Below, piece after piece: positions 706 through 47,077 of a DNA stretch of 64,000 bases. Under the pieces are notes generated by a model. It saw only the letters and a list, made by a program, of their open reading frames with translations, was not told where the DNA came from and searched no databases. A program made the position numbers and the translations under genes. This DNA is from Cladorhizidae sp. MBARI D1340-BT2 (lineage: Eukaryota > Porifera > Demospongiae > Poecilosclerida > Cladorhizidae), in contig JAQNBH010000003.1 in the NCBI GenBank assembly GCA_028752905.1, positions 5,512,204 to 5,576,203 of the forward strand. Reading direction: 5' to 3'. Positions within the stretch are counted from its first letter, which is position 1, and each line of letters starts with the position of its first letter.

Positions 706-946
706 CTTCATTGTCTACACGGATATCTATGCCCAGGTCCTTGGCAAATTTTTCCCCATACCAGATCAGGAGCTCTGACTCTGGGTGTATGGTTTTAATT
801 GTGCGGTAATATATACAGCCGTAGTACTGGTATGCTTGGACATTCTGCTCATCTTCATGCCGGGCACAGTTAACGAATCTCATCCAGTTAGAGTGGGAGG
901 GGTATTGTCCGTCAATTAAAAATGAACTAACCCCATTAGCCCTAAC
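706..946 (-). CDS. PRDM9-like gene, unit A: second PR/SET exon
   Basis: This 241-nt minus-strand exon encodes the C-terminal half of a PR/SET methyltransferase domain. Visible PRDM-family motifs are SHSNWMRFVNCARHEDEQN, the YRT segment and ELLIWYGEKF; they correspond to the PRDM9 residues around the catalytic Cys and Tyr (NCAR, WYG). The acceptor is tatag before GTTAGG at 946, and the donor GTTAGT follows 706. The frame opens in phase 0, matching the end of the upstream SET exon (3813), and closes with one overhanging base. The next exon (zinc fingers) would lie beyond the left edge of the window. The domain is intact, and its residues differ from unit B at only four positions, mostly near the exon start. 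Family membership is strong; assignment to PRDM9 rather than another PRDM rests on the whole-gene layout. Confidence 0.85.
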
Positions 947-3812: not shown

Positions 3813-4166
3813 CTCCCATGCATAGGTCATGTCATAAAAGTCTCCAACGTCCTCCCAGGCCACTTTCCTGCCTTCGTAAGGTCCAAACCGCACACCTTTT
3901 TTTAAGAAGGAGACGGCGAAGACACCTAGTCCTGCATCAGGCATTCCCGAGGGTCTGACAGTAAGTTGTGCTGGCACTGGTAGATCTGTGTAGGTTAGAG
4001 AGGACTGGTCATGGCCGGCTGAGGGGTCCAGTTCCGAGAGAGGACCGTGCAGAGGACAGTCTCCATAATACTTATTGTCACAGTCGTCACACACTGTAGG
4101 ATAATTTTCAGAGAACATAGCCAGAGAGTAAAGGCAAGATTCAGAATACTGCAGAAGGTAGTCCAT
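3813..4166 (-). CDS. PRDM9-like gene, unit A: knuckle and first PR/SET exon
   Basis: The exon encodes a CDDCDNKYYGDCPLHGPL knuckle (CxxC...CxxH), as found just before SET in PRDM9. It continues into the N-terminal half of PR/SET: RPSGMPDAGLGVFAV, KKGVRFGPYEGRKV and DMTYAWE. The donor GTGAGT follows base 3813 in phase 0, matching the acceptor at 946, which restores a continuous SET domain. The 5' boundary is uncertain. A TGA lies just upstream of the ATG at 4166 in this frame, and the nearest good acceptor is cttctgcag at about 4150, which unit B has lost (cttccgcaa). Domain call is strong, exon start weak. Confidence 0.8.
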
Positions 4167-5065: not shown

Positions 5066-5150
5066 ACAAATATCCATCCTTGACAAAGGTGGCATCCTTA
5101 GTAGTTGCACACTCCGAGGGTCTTCCACAGCTACAGTTGGTACATCACTA
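5066..5150 (-). CDS. Candidate small exon upstream of SET, unit A
   Basis: A well-formed donor (TTGT/GTAAGT, exon end 5066) and possible acceptors at about 5147-5150 define a short exon, conserved in unit B (41,395-41,479). Two frames stay open over most of it. The frame compatible with the phase-2 end of the upstream acidic exon reads DVPTVAVEDPRSVQLLRMPP. The other frame is Cys-rich (CTNCSCGRPSEC). I cannot decide which is used. Product unrecognised; gene membership is inferred from strand and position. Confidence 0.35.
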
Positions 5151-5239: not shown

Positions 5240-5529
5240 ACATCTTGTTCCGTTAGCTGTGCCTGATCATCTAGCGTTTCTTCAAGTATCACAGACTCTG
5301 CATCTTCTCCATCATCACTATCATTACCACCATCACCACCCACCTGACTGGGCATGATGTCATTTTGAGACTTCTCCAACTCGATGCTAAACCCTGCAGA
5401 CTCTTCCTTATCCAAGAGATCCACGCTAAACACATCTGACAATGGGACCTTAACCAGAGATGACGCCCCATGGCATGCCCGAGTAGATTTCCTTCGCCTT
5501 ACTCCAACCTCACATTCTCGCTCCATCAT
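5240..5529 (-). CDS. Acidic N-terminal exon of PRDM9-like gene, unit A
   Basis: An open frame on the minus strand, MMERECEVGVRRRKSTRACH..., has a basic start followed by a Ser/Asp/Glu-rich stretch (GGNDSDDGEDAES) and ends at a GTAAGT donor (exon end 5240, two overhanging bases). Unit B preserves it at 41,569-41,858 with a handful of amino-acid changes and no indels. An acceptor (gtgtgtag) may lie just upstream of the ATG, so the start may not be translational. No KRAB or SSXRD motif is visible. Assignment to the PRDM9-like gene is inference from order, strand and conservation. Confidence 0.45.
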
Positions 5530-11546: not shown

Positions 11547-12737
11547 ATTGGTGATATACAACTCACTGGTCTTGTGCGTGCTCCTGTTGGTCTGTGCGTG
11601 CTTCCTCGGTTTCCAACTACCCGACAGTGACCTTTGTTTCTTCCTCTCTCCATGGCCTGCTCCCCAAGTGGTACTTGCTGGCCCTCTTCTTGTCTAAGTG
11701 ATGCGTATTCCTGTCCTACCAATTTCATGTACTGACGGACCTATCTATGCATGGTAATATATATTATAATACATTCATTAATTATGACAATCAAGTTCCA
11801 ATGACAACTCTGTAGCAGATAAGGTTTGCACAATCAACATGACCGAACATACATTTATGGCTGAATAAGGACACAAAACTACCTATAGCCTGCTATGTAG
11901 ATCATATACCTGGCCTGGTCCATCAAGAGGAGTGAATGACAAGATGTTTAATTGACTTGGTCAAATTTTTAGTCAATTTAATTTAAAATGTTGGTGCCAG
12001 GTGCCAGAAGTACCTAATTCTCATTTCTATACCCATACTTAATTCGTTATTAGATAATGTTCAACATGAACACAATTGTACAGCTCTTTTCCAACTCGCC
12101 ATCTTAAACGTGATCAGCATGCTACAACAAAATCATTGCGGGCACAATAACCAAGCTACACTGTAAAATAGACCACGTAGTCGAACAATAAGTAGGACCT
12201 GGAGTGCGTTACCTGTAAAATATTTGGTTTCAAAGTATGACACAACTACAATACCTAAACTGGTCAATATTTCGTCGTTCTTTTCTTCCATGGGACAATA
12301 GGCACGTCGCGCACACAGGCCTAACCGCGCCCCAGATGACTAACTGACTCGGCGATCCCTTACCTTCCTAAGGGTACCTTTCTGGGCGTAGCCGGTGTAC
12401 TGCGTATCTGGTCAAGTATGCAGGGAATTTGAGATTGGAATCGTAATCATAATATAACCATAGCCAGGGGTGTAACCACCAAATTGACTTTAGTCAGCTA
12501 CTTAGACTCTGAGTGTATATAATTGGTTAATTATGCATTGAGAATAGTCTAACACACTGTTTTGTGCCACATTTTCTAATACTGAATGGCAGATGATATT
12601 GAATGGCAGACGATAAAAAATTTACAGGTGGAAAACAATTCTTAGATCACTTATGTTAACAAAGCCAATAATATAGTTCACTATGCATGTAAAAGTGTCC
12701 AAACAAAGAAAAACGGTTTTCATATCCGGACACAAAA
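11547..12737. other. Non-coding block shared with unit B
   Basis: Collinear with 44,253-45,227 and then the segment after the LINE. Small indels only; no gene or strong repeat seen. Confidence 0.5.
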
Positions 12738-14898: not shown

Positions 14899-14916
14899 AC
14901 AACGGACACGGTACTG

Positions 14917-17889: not shown

Positions 17890-18786
17890 GCCGGACTCAC
17901 AGTGAACAGACGGAAGTGCCAGTTCGGCAAGAATACGTGTACCTACTTGGGCCACCAGATAGGCCATGGACAAGTCAGGCCAGTGGAAGCTAAAATCCAA
18001 GCCATTCAAACATTCTCAACCCCCAGAACAAAGAAGGATATCAGGGCCTTTCTAGGAGTATGTGGTTACTACCGGAAGTTCATCCCAGACTTTTCAGAAA
18101 TTGCCACTCCCCTCTCTGATGCGACCAAGAAGGAGCAACCGAATCACGTCCGGTGGACAACAGATCAGCAGACAGCCTTCGTGAAATTGAAGCACCAACT
18201 CACCCACTACCCTGTGCTAAGGACCCCACAATGGGAGCGGAAATTCTACTTGCAGACAGACGCATCCAACACCGGAATTGGATATGTCCTCTCCCAAATG
18301 GATGATACAGGAGATGACCATCCACTAGCTTACGGATCTCGGAAGCTATTGCCACGAGAGAAGAACTATTCAGCGATAGAACGAGAAGCTTTAGCTATTG
18401 TCGAGGGAGTGAGGCACTTTAGAGTGTACCTGGAGTGTACGCACTTTGAGGTCCAGACCGACCACAACCCTCTCACTTACCTTGACAGGCTGAAGGATGC
18501 GCATGGAAGAATAGCACGATGGAGGATGGAGCTATCCCAATATGACTACACCATCACCCACCGATCTGGTTCTCGGAATGGGAATGCGGACGGTTTAAGC
18601 CGAGAATATGATTCGCGGCTAGAGGAGGGGGAGATGTCGGGGAAACAACCTTACCAACTCCAGGAAACCACTAACCAGGAAACCACTCAGACACCCCAGG
18701 AAACTACTACGTCTTCAAGTCTTCAAAGACCCACAGACCACAGCACGAGGAAGAGTAGTGGCAGACCACGGCACGAGGAAGAGTAG
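17890..18786 (+). CDS. RT end and RNase H (element 1)
   Basis: The same frame resumes after the TGA: GLTVNRRKCQFGKNTCTYLG, then RAFLGVCGYYRKFIPDFSE (RT connection). RNase H follows with acidic positions in LQTDASNTGIGY, IEREALAIVEG and VQTDHNPLTYL, ending THRSGSRNGNADGLSRE. The final 50 or so codons run through the polypurine tract into the 3' LTR (LTR starts 18,635). No integrase follows, confirming the unusual domain order. The first ATG is at 17,902 but independent initiation is unlikely; this is the tail of the gag-pol polyprotein. Confidence 0.88.
   Translation, partial: AGLTVNRRKCQFGKNTCTYLGHQIGHGQVRPVEAKIQAIQTFSTPRTKKDIRAFLGVCGYYRKFIPDFSEIATPLSDATKKEQPNHVRWTTDQQTAFVKLKHQLTHYPVLRTPQWERKFYLQTDASNTGIGYVLSQMDDTGDDHPLAYGSRKLLPREKNYSAIEREALAIVEGVRHFRVYLECTHFEVQTDHNPLTYLDRLKDAHGRIARWRMELSQYDYTITHRSGSRNGNADGLSREYDSRLEEGEMSGKQPYQLQETTNQETTQTPQETTTSSSLQRPTDHSTRKSSGRPRHEEE
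18619..18634 (+). promoter_or_regulatory. Polypurine tract (element 1)
   Basis: AGAGGAGGGGGAGA immediately precedes the 3' LTR and would prime plus-strand synthesis. Element 2 has the same arrangement (AGAGGAGGGGGAAG at 25,569-25,582). Confidence 0.85.
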
Positions 18787-21752: not shown

Positions 21753-22450
21753 TGTAGATAATAAGGGGATTGCCCTCTTTGGTCGCGATGCCACTGAATA
21801 AGAATTGGTAGTTCACGAATAGCAATGTGTATACAGACTGGCTAGTAATGTGATGCGCATGCGTACATGTAGGACAATGATAATAGGTACGGATCGATTG
21901 TGTGTGAGTGTATGTAGTTAGTATTGTCTATCTCCCCCCAAGTCTTTGGCCAGTAAGGTTGGAGACTGAGTAGTTAGTATGTTCCAGAGTAGTAGTAGTC
22001 TGGTTTCCGATGGGTTCTCTTTGATCTTCTAAGTCCAGGGTCTGGGGTGGCTGTCTGGGTGTAGTGCAGTCTCCTAGGCTGGGCGACAGTGGCTTCTTTG
22101 GGGGTTGTATCCTGGTTCAGGGTCCGGTTTGTTCCAGGCGTGGCGATGGTGGGCGTGGTGTCCATGAGTGTGATAGGTGTTGGGAGGTTTCCTGTCGGGA
22201 TGTGGTCCGAGTGGGTTTGGTCTTCGGTTTTAGTGGGTGTTCGCATCATTGGTGTGGTTATGGTGATTGGTAGTGGAGCTTGGGTGGAGGTCTTGTTTCT
22301 GTGAAGGCTTTGTGCGATATCTTGGGAGGTGGTTAGTTTGGCTGCGGGTTGTTGGTGTGGGGTGTATCTTCTCAAGAACTTCCTGTTCCTGAGGGAGACT
22401 CTCCCTGAGCCGTCCACGGTCCATCTTCACCAGGTACTTCTGGTACTGCC
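21753..22450 (-). pseudogene. gypsy pol 3' end and flank, split by element 2
   Basis: This is the downstream part of the minus-strand pol relic whose upstream part is at 26,190-27,985. The reading frame joins across element 2: DRTGTVIDVRQ on the right continues as YQKYLVKMDGSGRVSLRNRK here, then ends DYYYSGTY and stop at about 21,974. A polypurine tract (ggggggaga, minus strand, 21,931-21,939) lies below it, followed by what may be the start of a 3' LTR down to the junction with shared sequence at about 21,753. Absent from unit B. Confidence 0.7.
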
Positions 22451-23057
22451 TGTCAGGGAAATTAACAGGACCACCCCCTGACTTTTCAAACAGTAACCCA
22501 CCATAACCACAACCCACAGTTAATGGATCACTACTACCACAAGCATTGGATACACCCAAGAGACTAAGATTAACTAAAAGGTAACAGCCACAGTAAATAC
22601 CACAAGTATTGGAGACACCCAAGACTAAAAGGGAACAGCCACAAGGAATACCACAAGAACACCCAAGACCAAGATTACAGATAGAATGAACTATAGTATT
22701 GGATTGGCTATCATTATCATGTGACTGAATGTATGTATATAAGGAGAGTAGAGAGAGAGAGAGAGAGAGAGAAGTTAGACTATACTCTGTATGTGTCTTT
22801 GGCATTGACTTGTATTTAATCAAATACTTATCTACCCAAGTGAAGGGTAGGGAGCCAAAGGGGCAAGACCGTAAAGGGCCTAGAGAGAGAGGCGGAGGTA
22901 CGGCTTGTCCAGTTAGGTCTAGGAGGGGTGATTGGTGGTGTAGCCAGTACCCTGAGCTCCTAGGCGTCGCGGTGGAAATTACCAGCAGTAGTCTCTGCTC
23001 GGACCAGTGTTATTCGTTGAGGCAGGAAGGCCTCAGGAGAGGGTAATTTCCCCGACA
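22451..23057 (+). repeat. 5' LTR of element 2
   Basis: This 607-bp LTR starts TGTCAGGGAAATTAACAGG and ends TTTCCCCGACA. It contains tatataagg near 22,737 and a (GA)n run at 22,750-22,772. I see no difference from the 3' LTR. Confidence 0.95.
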
Positions 23058-23058
23058 T

Positions 23059-23076
23059 TGGTGGCAGCGGTGGGAT
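23059..23076 (+). promoter_or_regulatory. Primer-binding site, tRNA-Leu type (element 2)
   Basis: Same 18-mer as element 1 (TGGTGGCAGCGGTGGGAT), one base after the LTR. Confidence 0.8.
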
Positions 23077-23280
23077 CTCAGCATTGGAGATCCCGGACCA
23101 GCCTTAGCTAGAGCAGAGGAGTTGCCAGCTAGCTAAGGGAAATAGCCTGGGCTAGGCCCTGAGGCTTAAAAACCAAACCCTAACCAGATAGGAAAAGGGA
23201 GAAAGAATTTTGAATTTTAATTTTTCTCAGAATAGTTTATTATTTGATTGATTGATCGTTTGCTTGATTGCTGTCAGTAA

Positions 23281-24276
23281 TTGGACATGGCAACGGGACA
23301 AGCACGGCCAGCAGGACACGACCGACAGCTTCAGAGTGGAGTCTCTTCCTTCGTCACATCGACGCCATACAGGACACCAGCCCCGTCGACCCCTTGTGGA
23401 TACTCCTCGTCGAGGTCTCAGTTACCGGAGGTAGGGGACGAACCTGCTCTTATCATGAATCCACTGTCCCAAGAGGTGGACGAGGAGGGAGACCCTCGAG
23501 CAGACCCCCACACAACCCTGACTGGAGACTTGTTGCAGATGATGGAGCGAATGGAGGAGCGACGAGCTACCCGACAAGAACAGCAGCAGGAACGGTGGAT
23601 GCAGTTGCTCGCAACCGCCCAACAAACAGCACCCCCACCAGCTCCCCCTGCAATAGCCCCTGGATTCACCACCCACAGACTCACCGTCCATAAGTTTGTG
23701 GAAGGAACGGATGACATGAGGGCATACCTCGACACCTTTGAGGCAACGGCCGGAGCAGGAGGTTGGCCACAGCACCAGTGGGCCATCATCCTTAGAGGCT
23801 CTCTATCAGGTGCAGGGCTGACTGCAGTAGCCGCACTCCCAGGGCGAGACCAGAATGATTACCAGACAGTGAAGACCGAGCTACTTCGCGAGTATAGGGT
23901 CACTACGGAGGCATACAGAAGGAAGGTGTTTGACACACCTTTTGACACCTCCAACCCTGGAGCATGGTGTGCCCACCACCGACAAACATTTCATCAGTGG
24001 TTGGATGCCTCCCCTCACTCACATGAGGACACCATGCTAATGGAAACCACCCTCTCTCGTCTACCAAAGTGGCTGGAGGCCAGAATGCGGAATCTTGAAC
24101 TCCACACGTATGACGAGCTGGTAGAGACACTCGGTCGGCACCTTAACAACCAACCGAGAAGGGAGGACGACCACCGAGGAGCTGCAAGGACCCAAAACCC
24201 CAACAGGCAAATCAGATCCGACCCCCCCAGGAATGAGACCCCCAGGGGGAGAGAAACCCCAGCATACCAGAGGTGA
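23281..24276 (+). CDS. gag (element 2)
   Basis: The ORF begins MDMATGQARPAGHDRQ; a second ATG is two codons in. The capsid region parallels element 1 (FVEGTDDMRAYLDTFEATAG, IILRGSLSGAGLTAVAAL, SRLPKWLEARMRN) without the stop found there. A TGA at 24,274-24,276 ends it just before the zinc knuckle. The downstream ORF is in the same frame, and CGA to TGA is the likely change. Confidence 0.85.
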   Translation: MDMATGQARPAGHDRQLQSGVSSFVTSTPYRTPAPSTPCGYSSSRSQLPEVGDEPALIMNPLSQEVDEEGDPRADPHTTLTGDLLQMMERMEERRATRQEQQQERWMQLLATAQQTAPPPAPPAIAPGFTTHRLTVHKFVEGTDDMRAYLDTFEATAGAGGWPQHQWAIILRGSLSGAGLTAVAALPGRDQNDYQTVKTELLREYRVTTEAYRRKVFDTPFDTSNPGAWCAHHRQTFHQWLDASPHSHEDTMLMETTLSRLPKWLEARMRNLELHTYDELVETLGRHLNNQPRREDDHRGAARTQNPNRQIRSDPPRNETPRGRETPAYQR

Positions 24277-25638
24277 CCTCAACCGAGAGGAGGGTATCCA
24301 GCCGAGAGACCCCAAAACACCAACTCAAGACCTCTCGCTCAGGTCCGCTGCTTCAAGTGTAACCAGTTGGGCCACTTCCGAAGAGACTGTGGGGTAAAAG
24401 CTGAAAGAGCCCAGCTGTGCAAAGGAGAACCGGAACCCCCCTCACCAAACAAGTGGATCAGGGAAGCTCGCATTAACGACCGTCGAGCGACAGTGTGGCT
24501 GGATACGGGCTGCACGAGATCGTTGGTCCACCCTCGGGTGGTCCAACCGAACCAAAGGCTGGGATGGAAAATACCATACCACACCGCCAGCACAAATGTT
24601 GTCCGTTTCCCAGCAGCCAGGATTACCCTGGATATTGGAGGAAAAGCCACTGAACTGATAGTGGGGATATCACCCCATCTGCAAACTGATATGCTCGTGG
24701 GACAAGATGTCCCCGAGCTGGAGCAACTATTGAGCGACAAGATGGTCTCGAGGGCCCCGACAACCCTGGGAGGCATGAGTCCAGAACAAGTATATGTGAC
24801 CACTAGGGCACAGGCAGCCAAACTGGCCCTCGACGATCAAGAGGACCAAGAGCAACAGGAAGAAGCGGGAGTAAGACTCTCGTCTCCCGAAGACCCCCCC
24901 ACCCCGAGCCTAAAGAGCATCCCATTTCACCCAGAGGACTCGCCACTTCCACCAGAGTCCCGGGAGGAAGATGATGAGTTTCCCTTTCACTTCCAGGAGG
25001 AAGTGTTTTTGACCCCAAGACAGAGGAAGCCAAGGGAAAAACCGACCACACCATGGTGGCCAGAAAGAGTGAGCCCCGAGGACTTAAGAAAATCCCAACT
25101 CACCGACCCCACACTCAAACCAGCTCGGGAGGACTCCCGGGAGGAAGATGATGAGTTTCCCTTTCACTTCCAGGAGGAAGTGTTTTTGACCCCAAGACAG
25201 AGGAAGCCAAGGGAAAAACCGACCACACCATGGTGGCCAGAAAGAGTGAGCCCCGAGGACTTAAGAAAATCCCAACTCACCGACCCCACACTCAAACCAG
25301 CTCGGGAGGACGCCGATGGAGCAGCTAAGAAGCACCATTGGGAGGAGGGACTCCTCGTACATCGACCACTGGAGCAAGGAGGACCAACCCTCATCACCGT
25401 GCCCGAACCCAACCGACAGGAGGTTTTGGCATTGGCTCACAGCTCCCCCATTGCAGGACATTTCGGCCAGGAGCGCACAATGGCAACCATCTGTCGCTCT
25501 CTCGACTGGCCGGGCCTTCATAAGAATGCAAGTGCTGACGGACTAAGCAGAGAGCAGAGCTCTCGTCTAGAGGAGGGGGAAGTGTCAGGGAAATTAACAG
25601 GACCACCCCCTGACTTTTCAAACAGTAACCCACCATAA
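24277..25638 (+). CDS. Nucleocapsid, protease and truncated integrase start (element 2)
   Basis: This frame continues directly from gag after the TGA; the first ATG is 24,367. The knuckle CFKCNQLGHFRRDC is at 24,349-24,390 and protease LDTGCTRSLV begins at about 24,499. An in-frame perfect 177-bp duplication (24,958-25,311) repeats a 59-residue block starting SREEDDEFPFHFQ. The integrase HH segment (LAHSSPIAGHFGQERT) is kept, then a deletion joins KN to ASADGLSRE, the RNase H tail, followed by read-through into the 3' LTR. No catalytic integrase or RT residues remain. Confidence 0.88.
   Translation, partial: PQPRGGYPAERPQNTNSRPLAQVRCFKCNQLGHFRRDCGVKAERAQLCKGEPEPPSPNKWIREARINDRRATVWLDTGCTRSLVHPRVVQPNQRLGWKIPYHTASTNVVRFPAARITLDIGGKATELIVGISPHLQTDMLVGQDVPELEQLLSDKMVSRAPTTLGGMSPEQVYVTTRAQAAKLALDDQEDQEQQEEAGVRLSSPEDPPTPSLKSIPFHPEDSPLPPESREEDDEFPFHFQEEVFLTPRQRKPREKPTTPWWPERVSPEDLRKSQLTDPTLKPAREDSREEDDEFPFHFQEEVFLTPRQRKPREKPTTPWWPERVSPEDLRKSQLTDPTLKPAREDADGAAKKHHWEEGLLVHRPLEQGGPTLITVPEPNRQEVLALAHSSPIAGHFGQERTMATICRSLDWPGLHKNASADGLSREQSSRLEEGEVSGKLTGPPPDFSNSNPP
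24958..25311 (+). repeat. 177-bp perfect tandem duplication in element 2
   Basis: Copies 24,958-25,134 and 25,135-25,311 appear identical. 177 is 59 codons, so the frame is kept. Element 1 has a single equivalent. Confidence 0.95.
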
Positions 25639-26189
25639 CCACAACCCACAGTTAATGGATCACTACTACCACAAGCATTGGATACACCCAAGAGACTAAG
25701 ATTAACTAAAAGGTAACAGCCACAGTAAATACCACAAGTATTGGAGACACCCAAGACTAAAAGGGAACAGCCACAAGGAATACCACAAGAACACCCAAGA
25801 CCAAGATTACAGATAGAATGAACTATAGTATTGGATTGGCTATCATTATCATGTGACTGAATGTATGTATATAAGGAGAGTAGAGAGAGAGAGAGAGAGA
25901 GAGAAGTTAGACTATACTCTGTATGTGTCTTTGGCATTGACTTGTATTTAATCAAATACTTATCTACCCAAGTGAAGGGTAGGGAGCCAAAGGGGCAAGA
26001 CCGTAAAGGGCCTAGAGAGAGAGGCGGAGGTACGGCTTGTCCAGTTAGGTCTAGGAGGGGTGATTGGTGGTGTAGCCAGTACCCTGAGCTCCTAGGCGTC
26101 GCGGTGGAAATTACCAGCAGTAGTCTCTGCTCGGACCAGTGTTATTCGTTGAGGCAGGAAGGCCTCAGGAGAGGGTAATTTCCCCGACA
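25583..26189 (+). repeat. 3' LTR of element 2
   Basis: This 607-bp LTR is identical by eye to the 5' LTR and is followed by target duplication CTGCC. Confidence 0.95.
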
Positions 26190-27985
26190 CTGCCTCACAT
26201 CGATCACTGTGCCGGTGCGATCCCATTTGTTGGGGTGGTGACCGGTCTGGTTTTGTACCCTGACGTGTCCTGTCTGTAGTTGAGTGAGTGGTTTAGTATG
26301 CTCGCTCCAGCATTCCTGTTTGACGTGATGTCGGTTTCCGAGTGCCTGTTCTCTTAGGTTTAGTGTGTTGCTCCAGGTCTGGTGTGGTATGTATTTCCCG
26401 TGGAGGACTGGTATCAGGTCTCTTGTTGGTCGTCCGAATACGCATTCAGCAGAGATGACTGTTTTGTGGAGGGGTCTGGGCTGTTCTGGCATTGGAGCAT
26501 AGACTTCTGAAATGTCAATTGAGAGGTCTCCGTCTGTGCCTGTGTTCCCAGATATTATTCTCTTGATGGTTTTTACTCCGAATTCCGCCCTGCATTGCTG
26601 TGAGGGTAGGCAACTGAGCTTAGCCTGTCGTTTACCCCCCATGTCTTCAAGAAGTTTGAGGTGATGTGTGACGTGAACTCGGGGCCACCGTCTGTGGCTA
26701 GCTCGTCGGGTATGCCATACGTTGAGAAGGTCTTTCTCAGGACATCGGTGAGGCCCTTTGCAACGTCTCTTGATCTCTCCACAATAGGCCAGTTGGAGTA
26801 TCGGTCAATCACCACTAAGTAGTTTTTCCCTAGATGGTGGAAAAAGTCAGCACATATGTACTGGAAGGGGTACACTGGTAGGGCTGGTGGGATGGGCTGC
26901 CTGGGATGGGGCCATCCCGTTGCAGATCCTGCAATCCGTTCTGGTAGCTGCAATGTCGGCAGTGATCCCTGGCCAGAATATAGATGACTCTGCCTTGGCT
27001 ATCATTGCGGATGTACCTTGGTGAGCTGCATGGAGGGCTGCTAGGCATGTTGGTCGAAGTGCTGGCGGGATGATTAGTCGGTCTTTGTACACCACAATGC
27101 CATCGATGGAGTAGAGGTGGTCCCGATGGGTGTGGTAGTCTCTGATCGCTGGTTGTACTAGGTGGCGTCTGTCCGGGAAGCTGTCTTCGATGGTGTTAAG
27201 GAGAAGCATCATGTCGTCATCTGAAGATGTAGCTGTCTGTACTTGCTCCCAGCTGATAGGCTGTATGGAGTCCATGGTCGATGCGAGTGATTCTTGGATT
27301 GTGGTTTACAAGTGGTCGGATATGTGTGACTGATCTGTGGAGATGCCGGCCATGAGATTCGTTGGGATCGTGGTTGTGGATCTCATTGTTTGGTCCGAGG
27401 CAGAGTGTGCATCGTCCGTTAGGGTCAACTTGTCTGGGTCCTGTGTGCCGGTGAGGTAGGCGTCTGCTGTCTTGTTCTTGACACCTGGGACGTGGATCAT
27501 TTTGAATTTGTAAGGCAGGGTTTTTTGTTTCAGATTGCGGAGTCTTGTGTTGGTTATCTGCTCCAGGCATCTGTCTCCGAATATCTTGACGAGGGGTTTG
27601 TGGTGGACCGCAATGATGAGGTTTGTGCAGCCTAGGATGAGCCTTGTTCAGGGCATCTGCTACCGAGGGCCTCTCCCTCAATTGGAGCATAACGGGACTC
27701 CGCAATGTGTGTGAATCGTGACCCGACTAGGGTGACCTTCCATCCGGTTTGGCAGCAAAAGACGTCGTTGGATGGGCACTGGCAGTGCTACTGGAATAGC
27801 CAGTACCCTATCCCGTTCTTTGACCAGTCGGTTGCTAGACAAGTTGGTTTGGTTTTGTCGTAGATCTTCACACATTCTTGAATTTCCCTGACGATGGCTA
27901 ACTTTGAGTTGTTGAATGCCGATTGGTGTGATTCCTTCCAGGCAAACTTCCAGGCACACTTCTCCGAGTTACATGGTGCCACAGG
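26190..27985 (-). pseudogene. gypsy pol relic: RNase H to integrase (minus strand)
   Basis: Minus strand, 5' to 3': RNase H pieces at 27,985-27,690 (CLATDWSKNGIGYWLFQ; GSRFTHIAESRYAPIEGEAL), then a frame-broken stretch. Integrase follows with the HHCC area near 27,060-26,960 and core ICADFFHHLGKNYLVVIDRY, ELATDGGPEFTSH and AEFGVKTIKRII (26,900-26,560), then a tail VFGRPTRDLIP. Frameshifts (for example near 26,600) and stops break it. Order here is the ordinary gypsy RT-RH-IN, so it belongs to a different clade from elements 1 and 2. Element 2 splits its C-terminus. Confidence 0.8.
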
Positions 27986-28649: not shown

Positions 28650-29440
28650 TCTCAAGGAAGTCTTCCACTATCTTATCGAATTATTTGGGGAACTGGAGAT
28701 GAAGGGTATGTTTTCCTTCTTCCATCACTTCCAATCGACTACCTATCACATGTTCGTGCAAGTAATGTGCATGCAAGGAAGGTATTTGGCCATCCTGTGT
28801 CGTGAATCAAAGTTTGACATTTGATTTTACTGGGTTCACTCATACAAATATCACGTCATTCATTGAATCGCTTGGTGGTTGCATCAATAATTCTTGTCCA
28901 CATAATTATGTTGAAAAGATGACCCGTATATCTTCAAATAGCTATATACCTAGTATTCTAGCATCCCATTTTGATATGTCCCTCACTTTTTCATATGCTA
29001 TATCTTCCTCCCTTACAAAATCCTGGGAACTCCATGTCACCATTATCCTTATATTGTCAGGGAGCATGACTGCCAAATGGATTGCTGCTGGCCCTCCATT
29101 GCACCAGCCCAAGACAGAAAATGTTGGCAGAGACAGCCTCTGCATAAGAGCATTAGCATCCTTTGCATCTGTTACAAAATAGTTTCTATCAATCCTTTCA
29201 GCAGGTCTAGAGGCACCATACCCTCGTGGATCAAATGACAACTTAAGCCCACTTCCTTCTCTTCAAAGTATTCTAGCTGTGGTCCAAAGTTTGTCTTTGC
29301 CATTCCTGAAGCCCCTGAGATGCAGATAACAGGATGCTTACTACTCCCTCTAACTTCATAATAGAATTTCACGCCATTGATAGGCGCTACTCTCCTTTGC
29401 CCCTCTTTAACTATGGACTGCTTTCCGTGCTTGAATTATT
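28650..29440 (-). pseudogene. BPHL-like alpha/beta hydrolase, unit A (broken)
   Basis: The minus-strand protein resembles valacyclovir hydrolase (BPHL). Pieces seen are APINGVKFYYEVRG, MAKTNFGPQLEYFEEKEVGL, then after a one-base frameshift near 29,245 SFDPRGYGASRP, DAKDANALMQRL and VLGWCNGGPAAIHLA. The nucleophile elbow is G-W-C-N-G-G, so Cys stands where BPHL has Ser. KVRDISKWDARIL and a C-terminal HEHVIGSRLEVMEEGKHTL follow; the last carries the catalytic-type His. A stop (TAA) occurs in PK-FDK near 28,680 and another after RILGI. No introns are evident between the pieces, so a processed copy is possible. Confidence 0.75.
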
Positions 29441-36041: not shown

Positions 36042-36766
36042 CTAGTCCTCAATACTTTCCATAGTCCTCACAGCTGCACGATTTTTTTGGCATATATTTG
36101 TCGTGCTGTGACCCAGTAGGTTGCCATTTGTTCCGAAACACCTTCCACAGACCTGACACTTGTATGGCTTATCTCCTGTATGTATCCTAAAATGATTTTT
36201 TAGAGTGCCATTCTGACGGAAACACCTTCCACAGACCTGACACTTGTATGGCTTGTCTCCTGTATGTATTCTGAAGTGATTTTTTAGACTGTAATTCTGT
36301 CTGAAACACCTTCCACAGACTTGACACTTGTATGGCTTGTCTCCTGTATGTATCCTAAAGTGATTTTTTACACCGTAATTCTGACTGAAACACCTTCCGC
36401 AGACTTGACACTTGTATGGCTTGTCTCCTGTATGTATCCTGAAGTGATTTTTTAGACGGTAATTCTGACTGAAACTCCTTCCACAGACCTGACACTTGTA
36501 TGGCTTGTCTCCTGTACGCGTTCCAAGGTGCCTTTGTAGGCTGTTACTCCCACTGAAGGTTTTTCCACAGTAGGAATGAGCAAGGTTTTCGTGTTTCCCG
36601 ATATGTTGCTGTAAGTACTGCAATCGAGGGAAAACTTGAAGAGAAGTGAAGTTTTGAGGGTGAGCACCAGCACATGTTGAGCTCTGCTTCAAGTGGTCAC
36701 AAAATGAACCTTCTTGTGAGAAACATTCTCCACAGTGACGGCAACCAAACATTGCAGTTGAAGATG
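36042..36766 (-). CDS. PRDM9-like gene, unit B: terminal zinc-finger exon
   Basis: The exon opens after tgtttag at 36,766 with two bases that complete the codon left by the SET exon ending at 38,564, then reads SSTAMFGCRHCGECF. Counting from that Met, a proximal finger spans residues 4-27 (C-x2-C...H...C) and a degenerate finger about 60-80 (first Cys lost). Five fingers follow from 85, each YKCQVCGR(S/C)F... with HFRIHTGDKP linkers; the last is C2HC-like. Helix segments are QNYRLKN, QNYGVKN, QNYSLKN, QNGTLKN and TNGNLLG. The first four fingers are near identical outside helix positions 2-4. SET, a proximal finger and an array in the last exon match the PRDM9 layout. A TAG at 36,042-36,044 ends it. 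Confidence 0.88.
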
Positions 36767-38563
36767 CTAAACAACAAGGGAGGATAATTATTCACAAAAC
36801 AAGGGAGCTATTCACAAAACAAGGGAGCATAACTAGACACAAGACAAGGGAACATAACTATTCACAAAACAAGGGAACATAACTATTCACAAAACAAGGG
36901 AACATAACTATTCACAAAACAAGGGAACATAACTATTCACAAAACAAGAGAGCATAACTATTCACAAAACAGGGAACATAACTATTCACAAAACAAGAGA
37001 ACATAACTATTCACAAAACAAGAGAGCATAACTATTCACAAAACAAGGGAGCATAACTATTCACAAAACAAGGGAAAATAACTATTCACAAAAAAAGGGA
37101 GCATAATTATTCAAGGGAGCATAACTATGCACAAAACAAGGGAACATAACTATTCACAAAACAAGGGAACATAACTATTCACAAAACAAGGGAACATAAC
37201 TATTCACAAAACAAGGAACGTAACTATTCACAAAACAAGGGAACATAACTATTCACAAAACAAGGAACGTAACTATTCACAAAACAAGGGAACATAACTA
37301 TTCACAAAACAATGGAACATAACTATTCACAAAACAAGGGAACATAACTATTCACAAAACAAGGGAACATAACTATTCACAAAACAAGGGAGCATAACTA
37401 TTCACAAAACAAGGGAACATAACTATTCACAAAACAAGGGAACGTAACTATTCACAAAACAAGGGAGCATACTAATTCACAAAACAAGGGAACATAACTA
37501 TTCACACAAAACAAGGGAACATAACTATTCACAAAACAAGGGAACATAACTATTCACAAAACAAGTGAACAACTATTCACAAAACAAGGGAACATATTCA
37601 CAAAACAAGGGAACATAACCATTCACAAAACAAGGGAGCATAACTATTCACAAAACAAGGGAGCATAACTATTCACAAAACAAGGGAACATAACTATTCA
37701 CAAAACAAGGGAACATAACTATTCACAAAACAAGGGAGCATACTAATTCACAAAACAAGGGAACATAACTATTCACACAAAACAAGGGAACATAACTATT
37801 CACAAAACAAGGGAACATAACTATTCACAAAACAAGGGAACAACTATTCACAAAACAAGGGAACATAACTATTCACAAAACAATGGAACATAACTATTCA
37901 CAAAACAAGGGAACATAACTATTCACAAAACAAGGGAGCATAACTATTCACAAAACAAGGGAACATAACTATTCACAAAACAAGGGAACATAACTATTCA
38001 CAAAACAAGGGAACATAACTATTAACAAGCGCATAACTATTCACAAAACAAGGGAACATAATTATTCACAAAACAAGGGAACATAACTATTCACAAAACA
38101 AGGGAGCATACTAATTCACAAAACAAGGGAACATAACTATTCACAAAACAAGGGAGCACAACTATTCACAAAACAAGGGAGCATAACTATTCACAAAACA
38201 AGGGAGCATAACTATTCACAAAACAAGGGAGCACAACTATTCACAAAACAAGGGAGCATAACTATTCACAAAACAACTATTCACAAAACAAGGGAATTCA
38301 CAAAACAAGGGAGCATAACTATCAAAAAAAACAAGGGAACATAACTATTCACAAAACAAGGGAACATAACTATTCACAAAACAAGGGAACATAACTATTC
38401 ACAAAACAAGGGAACATAACTATTCACAAAACAAGGGAACTTAACTATTCACAAAACAGGGAGCATAACTATTCACAAAACAAGGGAACATCGCTATTCA
38501 CAAAATAAGGGAACATAACTATTCACAATTATGTCATGAACATGACTGCCTTACATAACTAAC
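36767..38563 (-). repeat. Minisatellite-filled intron of PRDM9-like gene, unit B
   Basis: About 70 copies of the 25-bp unit (core ataactattcacaaaacaag on the plus strand) occupy nearly all of this 1.8-kb intron. It lies between the SET exon donor (38,563) and the zinc-finger acceptor (36,767). Higher-order repeats are visible (a block with agcatactaattcacaaaac recurs at about 37,470, 37,740 and 38,105). The same array adjoins the SET exon of unit A. Confidence 0.95.
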
Positions 38564-38804
38564 CTTCAGTGTCTACACGGATATCTATGCCCAGGTCCTT
38601 AGCAAATTTTTCCCCATACCAGATCAGGAGCTCAGACTCTGGGTGTATGGTTTTAATTGTGCGGTAATAAATGCAGCCGTAGTACTGGTATGCTTGGACA
38701 TTCTGCTCATCTTCATGCCGGGCACAGTTAACGAATCTCATCCAGTTAGAGTGGGAGGGGTCTTGTCCGTCAATTAAAAATGGACTAACCCCATTATACC
38801 TAAC
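38564..38804 (-). CDS. PRDM9-like gene, unit B: second PR/SET exon
   Basis: This 241-nt exon runs VRYNGVSPFLIDGQDPSHSN then WMRFVNCARHEDEQN, YRTIKTIHPESELLIWYGEK and FAKDLGIDIRVDTEG. The acceptor tatag and donor GTTAGT are identical in position to unit A. Phase 0 entry from TYAWE (40,329) and phase 1 exit into the finger exon are both satisfied. The Asn-Cys and Trp-Tyr-Gly catalytic-region motifs of PRDM9-type SET are present. Confidence 0.88.
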
Positions 38805-40328
38805 CTATAAAGGTATTAATATCAACATATATAGTGACAATACTTGATTAAATACATATCCATCCTACACCAGGAGTGTTGCGAGATATTTCCTCTTTTT
38901 ATCGGTACCATCGTGTGACATTTATCCACAAATGAGAGTAACAATGTCAGTAGGTATGGACTAGGGGTTCCTTGAAATGTTGCCTGAAAGCATTTAAATA
39001 CATCCTTACACCCCACAAAACAGATCTACTACATGGCATAGAATTTATCAACCTGCAGATGTCTAGACTACACTGTATTATAAACTAGAGCCCTTGAATC
39101 CTTCCCAGGTAATGTGACGATACGGTGACATAAATGACGATTACTGTTGTTTCCTTAACTTATGATGACGATAACTTCATAACATGAACATCAAGCAGTC
39201 AGAATTCATATGCAGTATTCACTCCAATAGAAGTCGCAGCTTTATTGAAACTACCATAGGTTGCAACTACACAGCCACACAAGTGTTGCAAGTATAATGC
39301 TTGTGCAGAAAGAAGAAGAACTCAACTGCTGAAGCAAAGAGCAGCATTTGATTCAGCAGATCAGAGGCTTTTTGCACTCCGCAAACCTTATACCCACAGC
39401 ACGTATCTGGTACATGGTCATAACCTTGCTATGTCTAAACACCATAGTCAGAGTTAGCTGGAATCAGTTATCGAGTTCCTGGTTGCTATTATTGTCAACG
39501 AGGAGTTCGTTCAGTTCAATCTCTTGTTCATCCTCCTCCTCCTCCAGGGAGACAAACAGATCTTCTCCATCACTGTCACTCTCTTCCAAACAGCTGGTAT
39601 TGGTCAGACCAGCTAAAGATGCTACTCCATCATCCTTGAAGCAGTGAATCTCTTCATCTTCAGATCTTTCCATCATCACAGATATTTCTCAAGCAAAGAA
39701 GCATTTGTTTATCAACTTGGCAATTTTTTATAGTGTAGTGCAAGAGACATACTGACAACATATTGGTGCTAGCACATGGGTGATATAATCAACTAGGTGT
39801 GCTACAATTGGAATTGTTTATTTTTGAGTGCAACTTCTATTTAGGCAGCGGCTTCTATTCCAGTGAATACAGTGCAAAGGTTAATACAAAAAAACACAAT
39901 TGTATATAAACATTTTTCTCGACAAACTTTCAATTGCCATAGGTAGTAATCACGACTTTCTCAATAAATTTACTTACTCGATGTTTCAGCTAAATGATCT
40001 AGCCTTCATCAGGAATGAAGGCCAGAACCATCTAGTGGAGATATCGTGTGAGTAAATTTAGGTCGATTATTGAGAGTCTTGGTATTTCTAGAAACATTGT
40101 TGTTACTGTATATATATCATAAATATTTCTGTTTCAATGGATAGCCATCGTTTGGCTATGCATATAATACAGCATCGAATAGTTTTCACTAAAGATGTAA
40201 GTAAAATACAATCCATGAAGAAGTAGGTCATTGCATCATCACATGCACCCATCAAGTGTCACCTTCATGCAATTTGGTGTGCGTTCTGCAATGCATATAA
40301 AGAGCTCTGGCTGATGCACACCACTCAC
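38805..40328 (-). other. SET intron, unit B
   Basis: Collinear with unit A apart from lacking the 1,320-bp TTAA element. Contains the conserved acidic ORF. Confidence 0.7.
39464..39679 (-). CDS. Conserved acidic ORF inside the SET intron, unit B
   Basis: About 71 codons, with ERSEDEEIHCFKDDGVASL, TNTSCLEESDSDGEDLFVS and EEEEDEQEIELNELL; the same stop as unit A. Substitutions against A are few and the one length difference is in frame. Unrecognised; see the unit A entry for alternatives. Confidence 0.35.
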   Translation of the reverse strand: MMMERSEDEEIHCFKDDGVASLAGLTNTSCLEESDSDGEDLFVSLEEEEDEQEIELNELLVDNNSNQELDN

Positions 40329-40700
40329 CTCCCATGCATAGGTCATGTCATAAAAGTCTCCAACGTCCTCCCAGGCCACTTTCCTGCCTTCGTAAGGTCC
40401 AAACCGCACACCTTTTTTTAAGAAGGAGACAGCGAAGACGCCTAGTCCTGCATCAGGCACTCCCGAGGGTCTGACAGTAAGTTGTGCTGGCACTGGTAGA
40501 TCTGTGTAGGTTAGAGAGGACTGGTCATCGCCGGCTGAGGGGTCCAGTTCCGAGAGGGGACCGTGCAGAGGACAGTCTCCGTAATACTGCTTGTCACAGT
40601 CATCACACACTGTAGGATAATTTTCAGAGAACATAGCCAGAGAGTAAAGGCAAGATTCAGAATATTGCGGAAGGTAGTCCATTCCATTGTGTTTCGCAAA
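40329..40700 (-). CDS. PRDM9-like gene, unit B: knuckle and first PR/SET exon
   Basis: Encodes CDDCDKQYYGDCPLHGPL, PSGVPDAGLGVFAVSFLKKG and FGPYEGRKVAWEDVGDFYDM, ending TYAWE at a GTGAGT donor (exon end 40,329). Differences from unit A are mainly outside the SET core (LLQY/LPQY, NK/KQ, GH/GD). The ORF stays open upstream to 40,760, through FAKHNG, unlike unit A. The likely acceptor of A (ctgcag) is cgcaat here, so this copy may use another acceptor (gcaaag near 40,712). Start therefore approximate. Confidence 0.8.
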
Positions 40701-41394
40701 TCCTTTGCAATGTTTCATAATATATACAATATTGAACGTTGACCTTGATTGCACAATCAATTGAAGCCGTTTCAGCTGGTGGCATATCTATTCATGTGGA
40801 CGAGAGCCAGAGACTTGCTAGAGCTAGCTAAGCATGTATCCATCAGCTTCTAGAAAACTACCGTTAGCAGTAGATAATAATCATTACCAGCTAAGTGGTT
40901 ATCGCTATGGCTATGTGACTACATGTAAGTATTTGGCTACTAGCTATATTGGCCAGCTTAATTAAGCTATCACAGTCACCAAATGGTTATAGTTGCATCT
41001 GCCACCACAACTACTAGATAGCTAAAGAACACTGACTTACCATGCATCCAGGCATTCTTTGCCCTGCAGAGCAAGGCTCCTCTAGGTTCCAATGAGCTGT
41101 CTACAAACACCATAATGTTTACTGGAACCCAAACAGCTGATGGTGCAGCATCATATACTAGATTCTAGCACCTTTATTAGTCTGACACAACGTAATTGAT
41201 GCAACAGTTAAATCAAATCCTATCTGTTGCGTCTCATAATCATTCCGATGCATAAGCTATCCCGTCTGTTGCGTCTCATAATTAAGTAAGCTATCCTATC
41301 TGAATATCAATGTGATTGGAACAATTCAACACATGGAATGATTATTTGCCATACTGTAAACTGGCAGCGTGAAAACAATTTGCTTTTGACTTAC

Positions 41395-41479
41395 ACAAAT
41401 ATCCATCCTTGACAAAGGTGGCATCCTTAGTAGTTGCACACTCCGAGGGTCTTCCAGAGCTACAGTTGGTACATCACTA
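41395..41479 (-). CDS. Candidate small exon upstream of SET, unit B
   Basis: Same donor and acceptor candidates as unit A 5066-5150; one base change converts the Cys-rich frame's CSCG to CSSG. Frame undecided and product unrecognised. Confidence 0.35.
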
Positions 41480-41568
41480 CTCAACCAGCAGTGTACAAAC
41501 TTGCACCATGGCAACCAAGGTTAACAAATAAACCATTTAGCATTGCTAACGATGCAATCACTACTTAC

Positions 41569-41858
41569 ACATCTTGTTCCGTTAGCTGTGCCTGATCATC
41601 TAGCGTTTCTTCAAGTATCACAGACTCCACATCTTCTCCATCATCACTATCATTGCCACCATCACCACACACCTGACTGGGCACAATGTCATTTTGAGAC
41701 TTCTCCAACTCGATGCTAAACCCTGCAGACTCTTCCTTATCCAAGAGATCCACGCTAAACACATCTGACAATGGGACCTTAACCAGAGATGACGCCCCAT
41801 GACATGCCCGAGTAGATTTCCTTCGCCTTACTCCAACCTCACATCCTCGCTCCATCAT
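41569..41858 (-). CDS. Acidic N-terminal exon of PRDM9-like gene, unit B
   Basis: MMERGCEVGVRRRKSTRACH..., with an acidic Asp/Glu stretch and donor GTAAGT at 41,568. Substitutions against A (for example MPSQVGG/VPSQVCG), no indels. Gene membership inferred. Confidence 0.45.
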
Positions 41859-43571: not shown

Positions 43572-45227
43572 CTAAGGACTGTGCTGAATCATGGGTCTTC
43601 CCCTGCAACCTGGCTAGTAGCTAGCTAGTAGAGATGAGCTCCTTGTACTACTGCAATCAGTGTGACCTTCGCACTCTAGCTACTTGTATATGGCTCCACC
43701 TACTCAAAAATGTAAGTGTAAAACTAAGTATAGTCACAGGAACTACCGGCTGAATTTATGCAACCACCTCCTAATCAATTTATGCTCTTTATCAGACTTT
43801 GAAGTCCATCAATATATCTGATTTTGACAGTGAACCTCTGTCAGGTTTCACAACTCCATCTAGAAAGAGAGCATGAACTACTGCAGCTGCCAGGACTGGA
43901 GGAGAATTTATTTAGATTTACTATAACCAAAGAAGAAACGTCTTGTGAAATGGTCAGATCCTAAAAATGCCAAATATATCGAATACAGGAATGGTTTTGA
44001 TATGTTGAAGCTAGGATGGCTACTTCCACTGCCATGGTGTAAACTGTACTTCAAACAAGAATCAGTGCATTTATTGACCATAAAATTAATAGATTTGCTG
44101 TCCACAGTTGTAGGGTGGGGGAAGGGAAAAAACACTATAAGCATTTGATTTCAAATTCACCCTCCCCAGACCCCCCTAGAAAGGTGCACGTACATCCATG
44201 TGCACACACAGGAATAATAAACATCTTTGTTAATGGTGGCAGTGGAGATTACATTGGTGATGTTGAACTCACTGGTCTTGTGCGTGCTCCTGTTGGTCTG
44301 TGCGTGCTTCCTGGGTTTCCAACTACCCGACATTGACCTTTGTTTCTTCCTCTCTCCATGGCCTGCTCCCCAAGTGGTACTTGCTGGTCCTCTTCTTGTC
44401 TCAAGTGAGGCGTATTCCTGTCCTACCAATTTCATGTACTGATGGACCTATCTATGCATGGTAATATATATTATAATACATTCATAATTTAATTATGACA
44501 ATCAAGTTCCAATGACAACCCTGTAGCAGATAAGGTTTGCACAATCAACATGACCGAACATACACCATTTATGGTTGAATTAGGACACAAAACTAGTCAT
44601 TATTTCCTATAGACATAACCTGCCATGTAGATCATATACCTGGCCTGGTCCATCCAGAGGAGTGAATGACAAGATATTTAATTGAGTTAGTCAAATTTTA
44701 GTCAATACAATTTAAAATGTTGGTGCCAGAAGTACCTAATTCTCATTTCTACACCCATACTTAATTCGCTTTTAGATAATGTTCAACATGAATACAACAG
44801 CTCTTTTCCAACTCGCCATCTTAAACGTGATGAGCATTCAACAACAAAATCATTGCGGGCACAATAACCAAGCTACACTGTAAATAGACCACGTAGTGAA
44901 CAATAAGTTGGACCTGGAGTGCGTTACCTATAAAATGTAAAGTATGACACAACTACGGTACCTGAAGTGGTCTCGTTCTCTTTCAGTCCCTTCTCTTCTT
45001 TACTGGCACGTGATCTCGCACGTGTACAAACGTACACAGGCCATAACCACGCCCCAGATGACTAACTGACTCTGCGATCCTTTACCTTCCTAAGGGTACA
45101 CACCACTTTCGGGCGTAGTTTATTCCGCCAGTGTGTACTGCGCATCTGGTCGAGTACGCAGAGAATTGAGATTGGAATCGTAATCATGATATAACTATAC
45201 AGTATAGCCAGGGGTGATGTAACGTAT
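43572..45227. other. Shared block, empty hAT site
   Basis: Matches unit A 9382-10,062 and 11,539-12,470. The empty hAT target GAGATTAC is at 44,245-44,252. No gene supported beyond the relic noted at 43,690-44,030. Confidence 0.5.
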
Positions 45228-45235
45228 CCACCAAA

Positions 45236-47077
45236 CTCAACTAATATAATATTCCATCAGAATTATATAGCAGCAAAATCAGAGTATGAGAAAAGCCTGA
45301 TTAATGACTTTGCCTATTCCTCCAGCCTAAATATATACAAATACCTTTGTAAAAGTGCTACCATCCCCCCACTTGTTGGTCTAAATTCCACCTTGGCTAC
45401 TTCCGATGAGGAAAAAGCAACCTTATTCAACTCATATTTTCACTCTGTCTTTACCACAAGCTCTTTCCACATGCCACTTCTTGAAGGTAAACAAGATGCT
45501 ACTTCACTCAGTCAATTAAGCATTTATGACTCTGATGTTTACGAAGAACTTGTTTCTCTGGACATCACCAAAGCCATGGGTATTGACGGTATAGGCCCAA
45601 AGATTCTGAAGTTCTGTGCATCTGCCCTTTAGCAACCACTCTGTCACTTGTTCTCTCTATCCAATGAGGTACTTCCCAAAGAGTGGTGTACTCACCTCAT
45701 TATTCCAATCCTCAAATCTGGTGAAAAATCCATGGTTAATAACTATAGACCAATTTCACTTGTGCTCTGTCTCTAAGGTTCTAGAGCGTCTTATATACCG
45801 CAAATCCATCGGCTTTGTAGAGAAGTCCATCTCCAAACATCAGTTTGGATTTCTTCCAAATCGCTCAGCTCTGCAACAGCTTCTCATTATGTTGAATTTC
45901 ATCATAAAAGCCGTTGATTGTAATGATCAAGTAGACTGCCTGTACTTGGATTTTCAGAAGGCATTCGACAGTGTTCCTCACAATGAGTTACTACTGGCAT
46001 TAGAGATAATCTTTGGAGATGGTTTCGTGCGTACCTATCACAGAGAGTATCTCTGCGGATGACACCAAGTGTCTAAAACAGATCAGCTCTCCCCTAGATA
46101 ATATGTCTTAAAATAACCTTGATGCTATCCATGCATGGAGCAAAGAATGGAAACTTTCGTTTAATGAGCCGAAGAATGTACTATATACTTAGTTTCAACA
46201 GACAAGATAATGCTCTACAATCAAACTAACAAGAATATTATTGCAAAAGAGTTTCACCGTGACCTAGGAGTTATCATATCCTCTCATCTGTCCTGGAAAG
46301 AACATTATAACAACTTGAGCAAAAAATCATATAGAACTCTTGGTCTACTAGGTCGGACCATCAGCTGTGGTTCAGTCAAGGCTTGTATATATCTCTAGTG
46401 CGGTCTCAACTAACTTATTGTTCTCCTGTTTGGCACCCCCATCTCATGAAGGATATTCTCCATCTTGAGAAAATACAGAGACGAGCAACAAAGTTCATCC
46501 TTTCAGATTATACCTCAGATTATAAATCTAGGTTAACAACTCTCCATCTCCTGCCTCTAATGATGCAATTTGAACTGATAGAGATCACATTTTTTTCAAA
46601 TCCTTCCAATCTAGTTCTGGTGCCTTCAAAATTTGTGGGCTCTACCAGAGTAGCCAGCTCTTCTAACAAATTGAAACACTGTATTTCTAGAACAAAACTA
46701 TCAAGTAATTTCTATTTCAGAAGATTTTCTCGTTTGTGGAATGCACACTCCCTCCCATCAACTTGGATCTATCTACACAAACCATCATCCATCAGCTCAA
46801 GAAATTCTTGTGGTCTCATTTTGAAAGTCACTTTGAGCCCGACAATCCTTGCTTATTCCACTTCGCTTGTCCCTGTTACAAATGCACCAACATCCCATCC
46901 CCTCCAAACACCTCTACACCTCTCTCAGACTTTGTCTAGCTTGTTTGACCAAATGTTTACTTGTAAGATTACTTTTGTAGCTGATGGCTCAATCCCGCCA
47001 TCAGACCATCAGACCAGCCCTGTCAAGATACAATCATAGTCTCACAACCATGATTACCACAAGTCTAATAATAAAAA
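45236..47077 (+). mobile_element. Non-LTR retrotransposon (LINE), unit B only
   Basis: Flanked by the 8-bp duplication CCACCAAA (45,228-45,235 and 47,078-47,085), with an A-rich aataataaaaa 3' end. Unit A shows the empty site (about 12,473). The plus strand encodes RT of a LINE with the C-terminal segment typical of CR1/L2/Jockey-like elements. It is 5'-truncated (no endonuclease seen) and internally deleted. Confidence 0.85.
45393..47039 (+). pseudogene. LINE reverse transcriptase, broken
   Basis: Pieces in order are DITKAMGIDGIGPKILKFC, NNYRPISLVLCLSKVLERLI, ISKHQFGFLPNRSALQQLL and CLYLDFQKAFDSVPHNELLL. A jump at about 46,015-46,040 deletes the region before the catalytic loop, and SADDTKCLKQISS follows (A-D-D retained). 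Then come AWSKEWKLSFNE, VRSQLTYCSPVWHPHLMKDI, LEKIQRRATKFI and FYFRRFSRLWNAHSLPS. Stops occur after CASAL and DNMS. Coding capacity is lost. Confidence 0.82.

Follow-up and report, generated by a model that had tools for sequence, protein, structure and literature searches.

In many vertebrates, PRDM9 determines where chromosomes recombine. Positive selection on the zinc fingers of Prdm9 has been evidenced in early-branching metazoans, and concerted evolution of these fingers was reported for Nematostella, a snail and a worm (Oliver 2009, PMC2779102, in the portion of the text available). In vertebrates, fast finger evolution occurs only together with a complete PRDM9, with one possible exception, according to the accessible part of PMC5519329. 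A 2022 study singled out a mussel sequence as the most deeply rooted ancestral KRAB (PMC8835667, excerpt). Counting every kind of PRDM gene, a species has between 2, in the sponge Oscarella, and 19 (PMC10451705, excerpt, citing Vervoort 2016). Here we analysed a 64,000-nucleotide stretch of a cladorhizid sponge genome (the window, whose coordinates are used below), which lies on a 43.5-Mb contig, C12, of an 857-Mb assembly in 325 contigs. The subject is the locus flagged by the original prediction as a PRDM9-like gene (L017, hereafter copy B). Our data support its membership of the PRDM9 family, and it belongs to a lineage-specific amplification with over 100 copies in clusters, of which many are broken. 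It is probable, judging from sequence, that these genes form a birth-and-death family of PRDM9-type proteins performing DNA-targeted histone methylation.

The two SET exons and the finger exon of copy B were predicted to join at 40,329/38,804 and 38,564/36,766, and both junctions were confirmed to the base, with GT-AG borders and matching phases (0, then 1). Two extra 5' exons, the first with the first ATG, are compatible with them (Table 1), and the resulting predicted protein starts at 41858 and has 533 residues. Pfam recognised in it a PRDM PR domain (133 bits), a SET domain (43 bits) and C2H2 fingers (96 bits). The zinc knuckle, the PR/SET domain with NCAR and WYG, the proximal finger and the C2H2 array are all present; the knuckle precedes SET and the proximal finger comes after it. 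Exon 1 is homologous to exon 1 of related genes on two other contigs, C15 and C11 (42% at the amino-acid level, E 2e-13), and the C15 counterpart of exon 2 has 110 nt.

Among solved structures, which this ranking covers, the knuckle-SET region matched mouse and human PRDM9 best (134.5 and 130 bits), with weaker matches to PRDM12 (100 bits), PRDM14 (95 bits) and PRDM11 (70 bits). A plain PRDM12/14 identity was rejected on these scores. In a collection of 5.8 billion proteins, 295 candidates shared words with the query, and E 0.001 was passed by eight. Of these, four carry the name PRDM9 or PRDM7 (from two corals, a thrips and a fish), two are unnamed, one is a hypothetical protein from a snail and one is PRDM14-like. 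The catalytic tyrosines of human PRDM9 are Y276, Y341 and Y357 (PMC5519329, excerpt). When positions were matched by counting along the alignment, all three were kept in the sponge, as TYAW, YYRT and WYG in the window sequence and as AYAW, YYRT and WYG in C15 and C11.

A search for the PR domain scored 150 of 238 candidates, with rows sorted by hand, and the resulting counts are lower bounds. At least 76 second-SET exons lie on C12 over 3.4 Mb, at a median spacing of 37 kb and in both orientations (29 minus, 47 plus); at least 13 lie on C15 (1.2 Mb) and at least 22 on C11 (0.36 Mb). The remaining rows comprise 27 first-SET exons, two extra C12 exon fragments and 10 matches at other places, one of which, on C7, is another PRDM type. 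More divergent PRDM9-like relatives were observed at C16:7.17 Mb (L040), C9:13.1 Mb (L041), C11:29 Mb (L038/L039) and C16:33.7 Mb (L043), the last with the tryptophan of WYG substituted. The window itself contains a second copy of the locus (copy A), part of a tandem duplication of about 37 kb. Its two halves copy each other with 84-95% identity in aligned blocks, which would also be seen if two haplotypes had been strung together during assembly. We consider such an artefact highly improbable and rejected it, since the contigs are 40-51 Mb long, the 76 units occupy 3.4 Mb in both orientations, and separate clusters exist on other contigs.

The loci read were 20 on C12, 15 partial ones on C15 and C11 and six others, and a single unit on each of C15 and C11 was also read upstream. 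Both upstream stretches contain a same-strand exon reading ...LCDYEKKRLENIKKNQEMMKALG, which aligns with the coral PRDM9 N-terminus LSEYELLRLRNIKRNHEFMKSLG. In a shuffle test of this KRAB-related exon against PRDM9 N-termini, none of 2000 shuffles scored as well for a coral, an unnamed protein or a fish, and 9 of 2000 did for a thrips. In these units, KRAB-A can be recognised by its C-terminal half only. The exon is followed by a 'W' exon with SESDSDWEPW, akin to the tryptophan conserved behind KRAB in PRDM9, and the exon after the 'W' exon splices as ...EEDVLSDEDEYLFCDDC into the knuckle. Exon 2 of C15 aligns by eye with the pre-knuckle stretch of other PRDM9s; Pfam SSXRD stays below cut-off, and the stretch is shortened in the window. 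One C15 unit (L044/L005) and one C11 unit (L045/L012) show the near-complete order of KRAB-related exon, W motif, SSXRD-like stretch, knuckle, SET, proximal finger and array.

With the sponge exon as query, the KRAB-related exon was found at 39 places, 17 on C15, 21 on C11 and one, diverged, on C5. A query from another animal's KRAB region gave no match in the genome, a null that is a failure of sensitivity. All 13 C15 SET exons have a KRAB-related exon 4.7-14.9 kb upstream, and 21 of the 22 on C11 have one within the 12-kb pairing limit used there (20 at 4.6-7.0 kb and one at 10.5 kb). The unit with the 10.5-kb distance shares its neighbour's exon, and the nearest exon to the last unit is at 12.3 kb. 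Over the aligned part, 37 of the 38 exons on C15 and C11 are 93-100% identical to the query, and the other (83%) has two stops. These two clusters therefore probably hold the near-complete PRDM9 genes of this genome. The diverged copy at C5:13341646-13341753 (L053; 53% over 36 aa, E 0.001) lies on a contig without a PR-domain match among the rows listed; it could be a relic or belong to another KRAB-related gene. On C12, the same search with the exon of the sponge itself gave no match, although a strongly diverged exon could escape it. Because of this, and because the window retains weak traces only of the 'W' exon, the window branch appears to be a KRAB-less offshoot that has lost its N-terminus. 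The prediction of a PRDM9-like gene thus holds as regards family membership, but the window gene does not show the full PRDM9 design, since no KRAB-related exon was detected for it and its SSXRD-like exon is shortened.

The ratio of nonsynonymous to synonymous substitution rates (dN/dS) of SET was 0.04-0.35 within and between all groups, with rows containing gaps or stops excluded, which favours constraint; these values indicate that the SET domains are under purifying selection. Between copies A and B, differences in the first aligned block numbered 18/636 in exons and 82/1811 in introns (p=0.06), and with the second-SET block included they numbered 27/877 and 117/2348 (p=0.02). For the fingers, we compared 62 (C15), 24 (C11) and 33 (C12) distinct fingers fitting a strict 28-residue pattern. 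As reference we took the 22 codons that remain when helix positions -1, 1, 2, 3, 5 and 6 are set aside. Mean amino-acid diversity at the contact positions -1, 2, 3 and 6 was 0.66 (C15), 0.65 (C11) and 0.62 (C12), against 0.09, 0.12 and 0.06 in the reference codons. The ratio of nonsynonymous to synonymous proportions of differences (pN/pS) at contact codons was 2.4, 1.1 and 5.5, against 0.44, 0.60 and 0.27, values that are descriptive since gene conversion breaks tree assumptions. Per array, contacts held 0.36-0.75 of the diversity in the 24 arrays where four or more fingers fitted the pattern; some of these arrays are truncated where the locus ends. The same share was 0.56 in a coral, 0.40 in a thrips, 0.22 in a snail and 0.19 in an unnamed protein, a comparison that covers these four proteins and the sponge arrays. 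That the KRAB-less C12 fingers differ mainly at their contacts suggests either a different driver of fast finger evolution, for example a conflict with repeats, or dispensability of KRAB in sponges.

Several observations weigh against the reading of a functional PRDM9 family. All five exons were whole and open in only 5 of the 20 C12 loci (L017, L025, L026, L028 and L029), and three of these (L017, L025 and L028) are near-identical copies. Pfam KRAB and SSXRD each gave one sub-threshold match genome-wide (17.8 and 18.1 bits, E about 3). In C15 and C11, a single transcript joining the KRAB-related exon with SET is inferred, as no splice connecting the 'W' exon with exon 1 could be assigned. The contact pN/pS of C11 is near 1. 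In a maximum-likelihood SET tree of 16 rows, the four sponge sequences form their own group (100/100), PRDM11 nests inside vertebrate PRDM9, and midpoint drawing puts PRDM12/14, the sole outgroup, on the sponge-coral side (76/85). The SET phylogeny proposed as a check grouped the sponge rows firmly, and its deep forks are weak. The tree does not settle where the sponge genes join PRDM9 and is by itself no proof of orthology, although the domain architecture adds support. As for Pfam, its KRAB model also misses the coral N-terminus tested and stays below cut-off on the fish protein, and we therefore dropped the Pfam KRAB and SSXRD searches as tests of absence.

Damage among the copies might instead indicate a mostly dead, satellite-like segmental array that expanded neutrally and carries the gene by accident. 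The other C12 loci lack at least one exon in the fetched stretch, outside which it may lie, or have frame damage, including stops in SET (L018, L024 and L027) and an insertion in the finger exon of L016. A stop was flagged in 7 of the 76 C12 rows, two of them possibly the splice-site TAG. On C15, a SET stop affects one of 10 loci (L001), and in another (L006) the finger frame is disrupted; on C11, the finger frame is broken in two of five (L013 and L015). Tandem units of about 37 kb and the near-identical distant copies also fit an array of this kind. However, SET dN/dS does not exceed 0.35 in copies without gaps or stops, exons diverge less than introns, pN at contact codons far exceeds pN elsewhere, and nearly all KRAB-related exons have stayed close to the query. 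We regard neutral expansion as unlikely.

The reading that we prefer is a PRDM9 family that turns over by birth and death. By analogy with the PRDM9 literature, each protein would act in the germ line, bind its own DNA sequence through its fingers and trimethylate the histone H3 at that sequence on lysines 4 and 36 (H3K4me3/H3K36me3). Slippage and gene conversion among the 84-bp fingers, together with the duplication of units of 16-75 kb, may create new specificities, while old copies die. As to what the marks are for, placement of meiotic breaks by the KRAB-bearing genes and marking of repeats or transposons are equally likely, and each is held tentatively.

In the first case, the C15 and C11 genes might be true PRDM9 orthologues that place meiotic breaks, with many loci instead of many alleles at one, and C12 a KRAB-less side branch. 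The near-complete domain order in the units read upstream favours this, as does fast contact evolution, which in vertebrates is tied to intact PRDM9 (PMC5519329, excerpt), but KRAB-less C12 shows fast contact evolution too. The genome also has a CW + PWWP gene by Pfam that resembles the PRDM9 partner ZCWPW1/2 (L047, C13:45290869), the kind of partner that the original prediction suggested looking for. Since ZCWPW-like genes are not peculiar to this pathway, its presence is permissive only. A further locus, L046 (C17:44355398), has a CW finger by Pfam and a PWWP-like stretch seen by eye that Pfam did not confirm.

In the second case, each paralogue would recognise and mark a repeat family, as a genome defence resembling that of KRAB zinc-finger proteins (KRAB-ZFPs) and with no role in recombination; this might, with equal caution, be proposed. 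The clustering of over 100 copies, the diversity of their contact residues and the presence of dead copies are in keeping with it, and KRAB-ZFP clusters likewise show all three. The KRAB-less C12 branch fits best here. The SET domain, however, has been kept and constrained, and PRDM9 marks accompany open chromatin, not silencing; the link from array to repeat is drawn by analogy. With regard to hotspot placement, swordtail fish PRDM9 without KRAB and SSXRD acts like knockouts (available text of PMC5519329), which again would suit defence.

We tentatively propose that a PRDM9 combining the ancestral KRAB with SET and a fast-evolving finger array was present in the last common ancestor of sponges and the other animals. 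This sponge would have made from it a multi-locus arsenal, with dozens of full-length and scores of KRAB-less DNA-targeted histone methyltransferases, which sets meiotic breaks or polices repeats in the germ line. If this is true, the KRAB-related sponge genes date the PRDM9 design to near the animal root, and the expansion is a PRDM9-made parallel to the KRAB-ZFP explosion. The single subfamily described here has more than 110 second-SET exons, broken ones included, compared with the published maximum of 19 PRDM genes. Neither a sponge PRDM9 nor a PRDM9 amplification this large was found among the open-access literature matches listed, a search outside which the Vervoort 2016 survey lies. Because KRAB-bearing and KRAB-less forms coexist in one genome, the vertebrate rule of fast fingers with intact KRAB becomes testable here, and the C12 fingers already cast doubt on it.

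The features of both copies in the window are listed in Table 1. The finger exon of copy A lies beyond the window's left edge (locus L016), where the insertion splits the open frame into pieces of 4 and 5 fingers. A candidate 60-nt exon of copy B at 41100-41041 was rejected because its copy A counterpart is frame-shifted and its divergence was 8/52, against 82/1811 in introns (p=0.003). The 25-bp minisatellite occupies much of the intron before the finger exon in both copies (copy A, 1-670), and its position might favour exchange of finger exons.

Table 1. Exons, exon remnants and repeat of the two PRDM9-family copies in the window
Feature	Position	Strand	Basis
Copy B exon 1: first ATG, acidic region	41569..41858	-	open frame, donor GTAAGT
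Copy B exon 2: shortened SSXRD-like stretch running into zinc knuckle	41395..41459	-	GT-AG, phases 2 to 1
Copy B zinc knuckle and first half of PR/SET	40329..40609	-	splice borders, Pfam, structure matches
Copy B second half of PR/SET (NCAR, WYG)	38564..38804	-	splice borders, Pfam, structure matches, alignment
Copy B terminal exon: proximal zinc finger, degenerate finger, 84-bp tandem C2H2 array	36042..36766	-	splice border, repeat analysis
25-bp minisatellite, about 71 copies, in intron preceding finger exon	36773..38528		repeat analysis
Copy A exon 1	5240..5529	-	splice sites, homology to copy B
Copy A exon 2	5066..5130	-	splice sites, homology to copy B
Copy A knuckle and first half of SET	3813..4093	-	splice sites, homology to copy B
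Copy A second half of SET	706..946	-	splice sites, homology to copy B; borders set from flanking bases
Copy A degenerate 'W' exon with stop	11565..11732	-	tblastn E 0.007, 38% over 65 columns
Copy B possible degenerate 'W' exon remnant	44271..44372	-	tblastn E 0.17, 45% over 42 aa (weak)

Frames of gag-pol type and resembling reverse transcriptase were seen by eye at 14218-18786, 22200-27700 and 45195-47039, and by the same inspection look like retroelements inserted into the duplicated units. An open frame at 28942-29262 within the duplicated unit resembles, by eye, an alpha/beta hydrolase exon. The original prediction placed the DNA in an early-branching animal, in agreement with COX1, which is 94% identical to its top match, an unnamed sequence, and 89% identical to a Demospongiae cluster, the next named matches being anthozoans at 86% (among the best 120 of 7999 matches). 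COX1 itself occurs dozens of times on the small contigs C124-C128 (L052), in a full and two recurrent partial forms, with further partial copies on large contigs; this multiplicity may reflect either a mitochondrial genome that exists in many copies and recombines or a tangle in the assembly.

Compared with known systems, the sponge genes share with vertebrate PRDM9 the knuckle, the PR/SET tyrosines, the proximal finger, a one-exon 84-bp C2H2 array and fast contacts, and the C15 and C11 genes alone also share the KRAB-related exon and W motif. They differ from vertebrate PRDM9 in having more than 100 loci, in the lack of a detected KRAB-related exon in the window branch, and in that C15 and C11 show a recognisable KRAB-A in its second half only. 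PRDM11 resembles the window gene in its zinc knuckle and PR domain, but it is not known to have a finger array and is a far weaker match (70 bits). Tetrapod KRAB-ZFP clusters, believed to derive from PRDM9, are likewise clustered birth-and-death families with diverse contact residues. A KRAB-ZFP identity was rejected for the window gene, given its SET domain and because no KRAB match passed the Pfam cut-off genome-wide: KRAB-ZFPs kept KRAB and lost SET, whereas the window branch appears to have kept SET and lost KRAB. Among coral and sea anemone PRDM9, the coral N-terminus LSEYELLRLRNIKRNHEFMKSLG matches the sponge exon, and the knuckle HYGDCPxHGPL is shared; no comparable amplification is described for them in the literature excerpts consulted. 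Teleost PRDM9-beta and other KRAB-less PRDM9 retain SET and fingers and have lost KRAB and SSXRD, like the window branch; unlike the C12 genes, KRAB-less vertebrate PRDM9 shows no fast finger evolution, with one possible exception, in the accessible text of PMC5519329.

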